Source: Thermoplasmata archaeon (GTDB lineage Archaea; Thermoplasmatota; E2; UBA202; JdFR-43). From it: 16,318 bases of DNA. The stretch is taken from assembly GCA_003650975.1 (NCBI GenBank), contig QMSU01000003.1:1-16318 (forward strand), given 5' to 3'. This document shows, one piece after another, positions 13,323-16,318 of the stretch. Position 1 is the first letter of the stretch; every line of letters starts with the position of its first letter. The position numbers were made by a program, and so were the translations under genes. Below the pieces are notes generated by a model, which was not told where the DNA came from, ran no database searches, and was given only the letters and a program-made list of their open reading frames with translations.

Positions 13323-15371
13323 TCATGGAATAAATTCACTCAGACGTTTCACTCCATGTGAAGGAGGTTTTCTGCCGAGCAGTTTCAGAAACTCCTGTTC
13401 ATTTATCATCTTCACACCCAGTTCCTGCGCCCTTTTGTATTTACTGCCGGGTTTTTCTCCCACCACCACATAGTCCACATTTTTACCCACGCTGTTGCTC
13501 ACCGTCCCTCCTTCTCTCTCCACAGCCTCCTTTGCTTCATCCCGTGAGAAGTGCTCCAGTGAACCGGTGAATACGAACACCTTTCCCTTGAGCCGGTCCC
13601 CTTCCTCTTCATGGGTCATTTCCACGCCGAGTTTTCTCAACTCTTCAATCTCTTCTCTATTGCGTTTCTCGGCAAAAAAGTTGACAATGCTCTCGGCAGT
13701 TTCAGGGCCTATTTCCGGTATCGCCATCAGTTCCTCCTTTGTTGCCTTCATCAACGCATCCATTGTTTTGAAGCGGGATGCGAGCAGGTGCGCTGTGTAT
13801 TCTCCCACATTGGGTATCCCCAGCGCGTAAATGAGGCGGGCAAGTCCGCGGTGTCTGCTCTGCGCTATTGCAGAAAGTAAATTTTCGGCGGATTTTTCAG
13901 CAAATCTGGGAAGGTCGAGCAAATCCTGCTTTTTCAGCCGGTAAAGGTCGCTTATCCGCCGTATCAATCCCCTCTCCACGAGCAGCTCAACGGTCTTTCT
14001 GCCGCCCTGAATATCCATGGCATTCTTTGAAATGAAATGCTCTATGCTTCTTTTGAGCTGGGCAGGGCATGAGAGTCCGCTGGTACATCGAAAGTAGGCC
14101 CCCTCCCGCACCACCTGGCTGCCACACGAAGGACAGCGGTCGGGCATGGTGAATGTACGCTCCTTTCCGGTTCTCCTTTCCCTGATCACTTCCATAACCT
14201 CGGGAATGACATCTCCGGCTCGCGCCACCTTCACCCAGTCGCCTATGCGGATGTCCTTTTCCTTTATGTAATCTGCATTGTGCAACGTTGCCCTCGAAAC
14301 GGTCACCCCCTTCACATCCACCGGCTTCAGAAGGGCCACAGGGGTGAGTACACCGGTCCTTCCCACCTGCACCCCGATGTCCATGATCTGGGTTTCACTC
14401 TCACGCGGGGGGAATTTGTAGGCCACAGCCCACCGGGGGGAGCGTGTTTTTTCCCCCAGTCTGCGCTGATACTCAAACCGGTTCACCTTTATGACAATGC
14501 CATCTATCTCATACTCCAGCCGGTCCCTTATGGATTCCATTTCATCATGATACGCAAGCGTGCAGTCAATGGTTTTGCAGTGCTTTGCATGGGGATTTAT
14601 CTTCAACCCCCACTCTTTCAATGCATGCAGTGCTTCCCACTGGGTCTCGGGCGCCGGATGTTCTCCCTCATGGTGCATGATTTCATAAAAGAAGATGTCC
14701 AGCGGCCGCTCCGCCGTCTCTTTCGGATCAAGCCGCCGCAACGCCCCCGCAGCGGCATTCCGCGGATTTGCCAGAGGCTCCTCCCCCCGCTCCAGCAATT
14801 CCTTGTTGAATTCTTCAAAATCCCTGATATTCATTATCACCTCCCCCCGCACCACCAGCATGTCGGGCACTTCCCTGCCATGTCTCAGCACGAGAGGAAC
14901 GGCCTTTATGGTGCGTATGTTCTCGGTTATGTCTTCTCCTTCCACACCGTCTCCCCGTGTGGCCCCCCGCACATACCTGCCATTTTCATATACCAGTTCC
15001 ACACTCAACCCGTCCAGTTTGGGTTCCACCACATAGTCAACGCTATCCACACCAAGCTCCTTTTTCACCCGTCTGTCAAAGGCAATCACCTCCTCCCGCT
15101 TTGCGGTGTCGAGACTCAGCATGGGTCGTACGTGCCGCACCTTTTTGAATTCCTTTGCCGGCGGGGCGCCCACCCGCTGTGTGGGTGAATCAGGGGTGAT
15201 AAGGTCGGGGAACATCTCTTCGAGATGGCGCAGTTCTTCCATCAATCGGTCATATTCTGCATCTGATATCTCCGGCTTGTTCAGTACATAATAGAGGTAA
15301 TTGTGCCGTCGTATCTCGCTACGGAGGTGCTCTATCCTTTTTTTGGCTTCCTCTCTGGACATGCGCTGCAT
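13323..15371 (-). CDS. ligA: NAD+-dependent DNA ligase
   Basis: Seals nicks, for instance between Okazaki fragments, using NAD+ as the adenylate donor. It has 682 residues from the ATG at 15371, full length for bacterial LigA. Domains in order: Ia NMN-binding ([18 protein letters not shown] near 25-45); adenylation domain with the SLDTA segment and active-site lysine in [10 protein letters not shown] near 120; [11 protein letters not shown] near 290; OB fold with [23 protein letters not shown]; a four-cysteine zinc finger CPSC...C...C near 410-435; helix-hairpin-helix region ([24 protein letters not shown]); and a C-terminal BRCT domain ([19 protein letters not shown]). All catalytic elements are intact. 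The start fits a TATA box 24-25 nt upstream; an ATG at 15362 is also possible. It stands about 34 nt behind rfcL. Most archaea use an ATP-dependent ligase, so transfer from bacteria is likely. Confidence 0.95.
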
Positions 15372-15390
15372 GTGTAGCAATAAAAAACAG

Positions 15391-15399
15391 TGTTAAAGC
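15391..15399 (-). promoter_or_regulatory. TATA-like box of ligA
   Basis: The minus strand reads GCTTTAACA, centred about 24-25 nt before the ATG at 15371. It sits in the short gap between the rfcL stop and ligA, so ligA may have its own leaderless transcript in addition to read-through from rfcL. Confidence 0.4.
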
Positions 15400-15405
15400 T
15401 TTTTG

Positions 15406-16318
15406 TCATTTGAAATCGAACAGCACTGATTGCTTATCTCTCTTTTTCAGTTCCATTCCTTCCCGATAAATATCCTTCGCTCTCTCGTCAACCAGAAGGG
15501 AAAGCTCGTTTTCGCTCAGCTCCATTGAGGCGGCCATCCTCGCTGCAAAGTCCTCGTTTTTGAACAGTTTCTTCATCCATGGCAGCATGGCAAACGCCTT
15601 TTTTCCCGAGCAGTGCATATGCGAGCCCATCTTCTGCGCAATCTGCATTTGCATGTACCGCTGATATTTACTCGCTGACATCTTCCTGAGCCACCGGGGG
15701 AAATTGTACTGGGTGAAACCCCGGTACTCATGCATTTTTGCCACCGCCACACCACCGGTCATCAACTCATGGGCATACCGCCACAGTCCGTAATACTGGC
15801 GGCGCCAGGTTCTCCCCAGAAAGACAGAAGCCCGGGAAAGAAACTCATAGGCTCTCTTTCGGTCATCACTGTTCTGGTATTCAAGCGGCACATTCTCGTC
15901 AATCCACAGTATCAGAGTTTCGGGCGATTCATCCAGCTGTCTGGCCTCCTTTATTGCGATTCGCATGTTACGGGCCTTCAGTATGCTTCTCACACCGCTG
16001 AAAATCTCCTGTACCCGATCCCGATACCCGATGCGGGAAAGCATGGTTTTGTCCAGTCGTTTCTCATGGGAAATTGACTGCAGGTCGTTTATGGCACTCC
16101 GCACGTCGCCGTCGCACATTCCCGCTATAATGTCTATCACGGTGAGATCACCTCCGATGCCCTCAAGGCGTGCAATGGTTCTCAGCAGTTTTGCTATGTC
16201 ATGCGCTGCAACTTTCTTGAACGGTATCGACTGGCAGAGTGTCTTCAGCTCCGCACCGTTTCCCTTTACGAGCGCGTAGTAGTCATTGGCAATCAGAATC
16301 ACCGGCTGCCTTGCCGCC
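15406..16318 (-). CDS. rfcL: Replication factor C large subunit, C-terminal part (cut at window end)
   Basis: Large subunit of the archaeal clamp loader, which opens and loads PCNA on DNA. The window holds about 304 C-terminal residues; the Walker A and B motifs lie outside. The visible part begins in the AAA+ core with RQPVILIANDYYALVKGNG, then the lid: IPFKKVAAHDIAKLLRTIA, and the sensor-2 region GDVRSAINDLQSIS. The collar and C-terminal helical domains follow. The protein ends with QSVLFDFK, which fits a PCNA-interacting (PIP-like) motif Q-x-x-L-F-x-F, as expected for archaeal RfcL. A GTG at 16302 could be misread as a start, but the frame and the homologous sequence continue past it to the window edge. 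It lies directly upstream of ligA on the same strand. Confidence 0.9.
   Translation of the reverse strand, partial: AARQPVILIANDYYALVKGNGAELKTLCQSIPFKKVAAHDIAKLLRTIARLEGIGGDLTVIDIIAGMCDGDVRSAINDLQSISHEKRLDKTMLSRIGYRDRVQEIFSGVRSILKARNMRIAIKEARQLDESPETLILWIDENVPLEYQNSDDRKRAYEFLSRASVFLGRTWRRQYYGLWRYAHELMTGGVAVAKMHEYRGFTQYNFPRWLRKMSASKYQRYMQMQIAQKMGSHMHCSGKKAFAMLPWMKKLFKNEDFAARMAASMELSENELSLLVDERAKDIYREGMELKKRDKQSVLFDFK

Follow-up and report, generated by a model that had tools for sequence, protein, structure and literature searches.

A captured bacterial-type NAD+-dependent DNA ligase (LigA) is probably the main or only nick ligase of the archaeon described here, and may be tethered to the sliding clamp PCNA by its C-terminal tail. 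The takeover of archaeal nick sealing by LigA is well supported. Sequence evidence for the tether to PCNA is strong in Marine Group II, whereas for the LigA encoded in this DNA it is only suggestive; we regard this LigA as an ordinary enzyme with an unusual role.

The window, the whole stretch of DNA analysed, is the entire contig G000:C3, 1-16318 (16318 bases), of a 1.56 Mb genome assembled in 313 contigs and 85% complete. Since the window is the whole contig and rfcL runs into its end, only the C-terminal part of the clamp-loader large subunit is present, directly upstream of ligA and on the same strand. A complete LigA in this position had been described in the initial annotation, and the open reading frame, domains and catalytic residues are all there. 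Three candidate ligA starts leave gaps from rfcL of 25 nt (TTG), 34 nt (ATG 15371) and 43 nt (ATG 15362). The earlier estimate of about 34 nt thus holds for ATG 15371, but ATG 15362 agrees best with homologous starts and with the spacing of the TATA-like element, and is likely the true start.

Table 1. Positions of the ligA-rfcL features within the window
Feature	Position	Strand	Remarks
ligA, NAD+-dependent DNA ligase	13323..15380	-	685 aa if started at TTG 15380; ATG 15362 (MSREEAKKR) the likely true start
Domain Ia, NAD+-recognition (PF22745, residues 13-62)	15195..15344	-	Pfam match
Adenylation domain (PF01653, residues 76-325), with KLDG lysine K121	14406..15155	-	Pfam and alignment
OB fold (PF03120, residues 329-406)	14163..14396	-	Pfam match
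C4 zinc finger (PF03119, residues 415-440)	14061..14138	-	Pfam and alignment
HhH domain (PF12826, residues 515-577)	13650..13838	-	Pfam match
BRCT domain (PF00533, residues 596-667)	13380..13595	-	Pfam match
C-terminal tail after BRCT (residues 670-685)	13326..13373	-	Sequence comparison and AlphaFold2
PIP-like terminal motif VKRLSEFI (residues 677-684), without canonical Gln	13329..13352	-	Sequence comparison
TATA-like element TTTTTTATT	15379..15387	-	Core starts 24 nt upstream of ATG 15362
rfcL, clamp-loader large subunit	15406..16317	-	C-terminal 303 aa only; 5' part lost at contig end
Canonical PIP box QSVLFDFK at RfcL C-terminus	15409..15432	-	Sequence

The protein is an NAD+-dependent LigA, predicted to seal nicks with NAD+. 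It scores 877 bits against NCBIfam NF005932 (cut-off 369), and a Pfam scan finds domain Ia and the adenylation, OB, zinc-finger, HhH and BRCT domains all present and in order. Residues K121, D123 and G124 of the KLDG motif and the zinc-finger cysteines C416, C419, C432 and C438 are invariant across 42 aligned LigAs. The closest solved structure is PDB 2owo (622 bits over residues 11-669), which we take to be E. coli LigA, and domains and catalytic residues are those of the bacterial enzyme (NF005932/TIGR00575; 2owo). With 808.4 bits against a cut-off of 1051, the protein does not reach the threshold of NF010931, presumably the haloarchaeal LigN model. An AlphaFold2 model from a 42-row alignment has a mean pLDDT of 84 and a pTM of 0.53.

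A profile search for the ATP-dependent ligase (PF01068), which recovered its four named archaeal controls, gave zero matches in the source genome; at 85% completeness, a Lig1 gene could be missing from the assembly. Among 59 genomes, the source included, LigA is matched in 53 (a count that includes a remnant with stops in G018 and a piece at a contig end in G021) and PF01068 in 17, 16 of them above the cut-off. These results bear out the earlier suggestion that LigA may replace the ATP-dependent ligase. In the window's own family, LigA occurs in 16 of 17 genomes and PF01068 exceeds the cut-off in 10, all ten having a 304-322 aa frame. Two such frames were scanned, and the one tested with NCBIfam matches an NHEJ ligase model and adjoins Ku; the ~310-aa ligases of the family look like NHEJ ligases by sequence. 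The seven family genomes without an ATP ligase above the cut-off are the source (85% complete) and six at 94-98%.

The pattern extends beyond the family. The largest family of the class, f4, has LigA without any PF01068 match in 27 of its 28 genomes and a partial match in the remaining one. Replacement is not universal in the class, since the three genomes of families f7 and f9 have PF01068 and lack LigA. Neither ligase type was detected in G020 and G051, so the searches or assemblies evidently miss some genes. By hand count over 391 genomes of the phylum, LigA is found at E<=1e-20 in 205 (leaving out ten weaker matches), PF01068 in 191, both in 15 and neither in 10. The view that LigA is uncommon in archaea, on which the initial annotation relied, is thus out of date for this phylum. 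Families f21 and f31, absent from the PF01068 matches of the phylum search, contain proteins named Candidatus Thalassarchaeaceae, a name that presumably links them to Marine Group II. For Marine Group II the ligase takeover is already known, the ATP ligase being absent and a bacterial-derived NAD ligase present (PMC4153887 Table 3). Our literature search returned no report of ATP-ligase loss accompanied by a bacterial-derived NAD ligase for the window's class.

It is improbable, in our estimate, that LigA serves mainly as a repair ligase, part of a gap-filling module with the polymerase PolX, while an undetected ATP-dependent Lig1 replicates the genome. Such a reading draws on the polX-ligA pair, which lies on one strand with 0-25 nt between matches in 28/28 f4 and 2/2 f10 relatives that have both genes, and on three members of the window's family (G002, G004 and G009) that keep an additional ATP ligase frame of Lig1 length (488-561 aa) beside LigA; the two scanned both match the Lig1-type model TIGR00574 above its cut-off. 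However, seven LigA-bearing members of the family or order that are 93-99% complete (G001, G006, G007, G008, G011, G017 and G019) have no PF01068 match in a search that found its controls, and in G005 (97% complete) the only match is sub-threshold and located on LigA itself.

In a tree that included bacterial sequences, as the initial annotation had proposed, the LigAs of the window's family form one clade with SH-aLRT supports of 100 and 99, but single and several captures are both compatible with the data. Lineage A comprises the window's family together with f2, f10, f6 and four f4 genomes; lineage B holds the other f4 rows and f5, and Marine Group II forms a third clade. The bacterial sample is biased toward close relatives of the query. 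Constrained trees were not rejected either when lineages A and B were joined in one clade (AU p 0.063) or when lineage A was joined with Marine Group II (AU p 0.62). Rows L233 (wrong frame) and L234 were left out of the later tree, the AU tests and the parsimony of the tail described below.

Across the class, ligA most often neighbours polX, whose identity is supported by NF006375 (587 bits for the f10 copy, cut-off 426). The pair recurs at single loci of f19 and f51 and at two loci of f40, and looser arrangements occur in f28 (wider gap), f25 (divergent) and f6 and f8 (about 0.6-0.7 kb apart). No PolX match was found at the ligA loci examined in Marine Group II, f5 and f12. An origin of the pair as a bacterial package was considered and rejected, with PolX in the flanks of 0/69 bacterial LigA loci, some of which have short flanks. 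In the window's family, polX and ligA lie apart in 15/15 genomes with both genes, a few others being undecided at contig ends; the source genome carries polX on contig C136. Within f4, LigAs of both lineages sit behind polX, and PolX identity to the f10 query is 60-62% in the four genomes with a lineage-A LigA and 53-63% in the rest, which together suggest that ligA was replaced in place. A plausible history begins with PolX and LigA as a repair pair, whose ligase took over replication and whose ligase gene later moved beside rfcL in the window's order.

The arrangement with ligA directly behind rfcL on one strand occurs in 10 genomes, seven of the window's family (the source included) and three of a sister family, with 28-164 nt before the ligA ATG. 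The adjacency, which the initial annotation had proposed to check in related genomes, is kept in nine other assemblies and absent in 7 LigA-bearing family members (G001, G004, G005, G006, G008, G011 and G013). In G005 no rfcL was found, and the 3.6 kb upstream of its ligA are free of it; G003, with both genes at contig ends, and G015, without rfcL, stand outside the count. One sister-family genome, G020, has an intact rfcL and no LigA that we could find. Comparison of gene positions revealed no such adjacency outside the two families.

That the pair is an artefact of a chimeric bacterial-archaeal contig is a reading to which we give almost no credence. The rfcL gene does run into the contig end, and a second LigA fragment of different GC lies on contig C208 of the same genome. 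Yet the GC of the LigA, rfcL, FEN1 and PCNA loci is similar (0.48-0.53), and the nine other assemblies share the gene order with LigAs 65-77% identical, so that misassembly, raised at the outset as a possible refutation, is rejected.

The region upstream of ligA offers a further view of this arrangement. All seven rfcL-adjacent family loci have a TATA-like TTTTTAT(T/C) beginning 24-34 nt before the ATG, usually followed by a T-rich stretch. Six of the eight other family loci (L008, L009, L012, L013, L015 and L016) have TTTTTATT or TTTTTAAT at 27-29 nt, and L014 has TTATTATA at 25 nt before the ligA ATG; L011 shows no TATA-like element at the corresponding place. Inspection by eye revealed no Shine-Dalgarno-like sequence upstream of ligA in the family's loci, and the sister family has GGTGA-like sequences instead of a TATA-like element. 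In the window's family, ligA is probably transcribed from its own leaderless promoter, and this element would speak against a dependence on rfcL transcription. Because of the promoter-like element, and because the commonest neighbour in the class is polX, adjacency is weak evidence of recruitment. The initial annotation had read the position behind rfcL as a sign of recruitment into replication, an argument that loses its force as the TATA-like element is found with or without rfcL nearby, seven family LigAs are unpaired, and elsewhere in the class ligA is mostly behind polX.

A possible link to the replication machinery lies at the C-terminus of the protein, which ends in VKRLSEFIP. AlphaFold2 (42-row alignment) predicts residues 671-685 to be disordered (mean pLDDT 47); residues 680-682 form a short turn of three residues. 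The aliphatic residue at PIP position 4 and the aromatic residue at position 7 are present as L680 and F683. The Gln of position 1 is missing (V677 in the window; 0/30 family clusters in the best-scoring stretch), as is the second aromatic residue of position 8 (I684 in the window; F in 13/29 motif-bearing clusters), and position 5 is Asp or Ser in family LigA tails and Phe in RfcL and FEN1. FEN1 of the same genome ends in QRSLFDYQ, with the Gln kept as in RfcL; compared with these ends, the LigA motif keeps the L-x-acidic-F core and not the Gln. The initial annotation was right that LigA has no canonical PIP box, but a conserved PIP-like C-terminus is present.

The 39 closest LigA clusters include 30 of at least 680 aa. 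All but one of these carry L-[DS]-[EK]-F close to the C-terminus (29 clusters), the exception having RFDDF. In most family LigAs, the BRCT domain is followed by a linker and then the terminal motif, and some members have no tail. The linker spans 8-23 residues in 13 representatives, which were chosen by a pattern fixing positions 4-7 (Leu 4, Phe 7), so that their per-position counts are not independent evidence. Short PIP-like ends also occur in an f5 LigA (L185, QKTLF) and one f4 LigA (L030, KQSTLL), resembling the short FEN1/RfcL ends of some relatives (QKTLF).

Once the tails had been seen, a strict pattern was formulated for them, L[DSFGE][DEKN][FYW] within the last 14 residues. It occurs in 29/39 of the closest clusters (29/30 of those with 680 aa or more), in 240/240 Marine Group II clusters and 0/81 of the next LigA clusters, both among the matches listed, in 0/19 lineage B and 0/68 bacterial LigAs, and in 1/228 background open frames of at least 150 aa, not all of them proven genes. 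Excluded from these counts are the bacterial L103, truncated at a contig end, and three lineage B rows, namely L030, L185 and L179 (a duplicate); the ends of L030 and L185 would fail the pattern. A looser pattern matches 24/228 background frames, 3/68 bacteria and 1 of the next 81 clusters among the matches listed. A PIP matrix trained on FEN1, RfcL and Marine Group II LigA only, with the window's family left out, gives a modest result for the window tail, with 8-14 of 228 background frames scoring as high and a shuffle p of 0.012-0.022. For most family tails of the T-L-D-E-F and S-L-D-E-F forms, fewer background frames score as high (0-5 of 228); tails of the P-L-D-E-F and P-L-D-K-F forms do not exceed chance.

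Marine Group II tails fall into two sets. In one, ends such as RQSTLGEF carry the Gln in 120/120 clusters among the matches listed; in the other, with KTLFEF, TLFDY and GTLDDW forms, it is kept in 3/120 among the matches listed, and Gln-less LigA tails are therefore common. By eye, 12 of 13 Marine Group II genome loci have a PIP-type end, and L166 has an in-frame stop before the end. For haloarchaeal LigN, a single plasmid remnant (L229) was recovered, and it has no PIP-like end. In mostly open-access literature we found no account of clamp-binding tails of archaeal LigA, and to the searches made, these putative clamp-docking tails appear unreported.

An archaeal clamp is available for such docking. 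PCNA was found in 25/31 genomes, the source included, and the bacterial beta clamp in 0/31 by a search that was positive in 10/14 controls, all bacteria. According to PMC6881253, the S. solfataricus, P. furiosus and A. fulgidus proteins studied there carry their PIP motifs at the very C-terminus, and PCNA is still bound by strongly non-canonical motifs. The PIP motif of S. solfataricus Lig1 lies in the DNA-binding domain and not at the end (PMC10244674), which argues against a simple analogy with the LigA tail.

A less probable but still appreciable reading is that LigA is the sole or main ligase and the tail is no PIP box, serving another partner or packing on the BRCT or HhH domain, without clamp tethering. 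The missing Gln, the Asp or Ser instead of Phe at position 5, the poor scores of sister forms on the PIP matrix and the tailless family members would all fit with this. In contrast, the Leu/Phe spacing and the C-terminal, linker-borne position fit PIP boxes, and ends of a similar kind occur in Marine Group II LigAs, mostly without Gln in one set. Under parsimony, gain and loss of the tail require 4 changes over all rows and 2 within lineage A. This scoring omits L030 and treats all Marine Group II rows, even L166, as tailed; a single gain followed by losses is possible.

The closest known systems help to place the preferred reading of a clamp-tethered LigA. The window LigA differs from bacterial LigA in its PIP-like tail, the conserved tail being found in 0/68 bacterial LigAs sampled with the strict pattern, and in its host, where PCNA is present and the beta clamp was not detected. 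Marine Group II (Poseidoniales) resembles the window's family in lacking an ATP ligase and in having a clamp-type motif after BRCT, but its LigAs are 36-38% identical to that of the window, form a separate clade and in one set keep the canonical Gln. LigN of Haloferax volcanii is likewise a bacterial-type NAD+ ligase in an archaeon; it can cover essential ligation and is redundant with the ATP-dependent LigA of Haloferax (PMC1684257, PMC7776575), whereas no ATP ligase was found in the window genome. PMC4976356 describes a Helicobacter pylori LigA that binds the beta clamp through the peptide QEFIRSLF (residues 554-561). The docking proposed for the window LigA resembles this use of a short peptide to bind a sliding clamp, although the H. 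pylori peptide lies near the BRCT domain and binds a bacterial beta clamp, and the window motif is C-terminal and would face archaeal PCNA.

The course of events we propose would begin with the gain of a bacterial-type LigA gene by horizontal transfer, after which LigA would most likely have become the main or only enzyme joining Okazaki fragments and closing repair nicks. LigA would seal the nick once the archaeal polymerase and FEN1 have acted on PCNA; the Leu and Phe of its tail, carried on the flexible linker behind BRCT, would enter the PIP pocket and so hold the ligase on the clamp. Adjacency to rfcL would reflect a rearrangement within the window's order, away from the polX-ligA pair of much of the class; as ligA has a promoter-like element of its own, the role would not depend on this position. 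The broader proposal, that Thermoplasmatota-type archaea captured LigA and rewired it to the clamp via C-terminal PCNA-docking tails, clear in Marine Group II and Gln-less in the window's family, seems to us evenly balanced.

Core replication parts are thought to pass between domains only with difficulty. Yet, beyond Marine Group II, much of an archaeal class appears to have swapped the ATP-dependent for a bacterial NAD+-dependent ligase. A route is suggested by the conserved tails, of which those of Marine Group II are the strongest: the gain of a short clamp-docking motif. Relatives with and without the tail exist in nature as a natural comparison. Perhaps one short linear motif fitted a foreign ligase into the archaeal replisome, maybe more than once.

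The pairing of polX with ligA is conserved across many Thermoplasmatota-type genomes, being found at one such locus and in the genomes of 30 relatives. Among bacterial LigA loci, the polX-ligA pair was found in none of the 69 looked at, for some of which the flanks were short. On a plasmid of Salinigranum marinum, a remnant of the LigA BRCT domain lies immediately 5' of polX, and this adjacency hints at a ligA-polX neighbourhood in haloarchaea as well.

The C-terminal ends of two Thermotogaceae LigAs (L092 and L097) read GPMTLF/GPMRLF, which in sequence resembles a bacterial beta-clamp motif. 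One of the Marine Group II LigAs (L166) carries an in-frame stop directly ahead of its C-terminal motif.

The assembly that holds the window contains a further LigA fragment of 359 aa, with a GC content of 0.598 vs 0.494 for the window and a closest relative at 59.7% identity. Its contig, C208, is perhaps a contaminant. Within the window's family, one genome (G012) encodes an NHEJ-type ATP ligase adjoining Ku, and ligase frames of similar size are present in 9 further genomes.

Apart from ligA, the window carries consecutive hydrogenase-maturation genes and an 1188-aa lamin-tail protein. Inspection by eye places hydrophobic stretches close to both the N- and C-terminal ends of the latter, so that this protein is perhaps secreted or anchored.

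Coordinates of the features discussed
Feature	Location	Remarks
hypC, hypA, hypD	window 3302-5028	
1188-aa protein	window 5913-9479	lamin-tail domain, Ig-like stretches
LigA fragment (L236)	G000:C208:1-1077	
NHEJ-type ATP ligase	L041 1150-2834	
polX-ligA pair	L052 4281-8007	
LigA BRCT remnant	L229 801-1010
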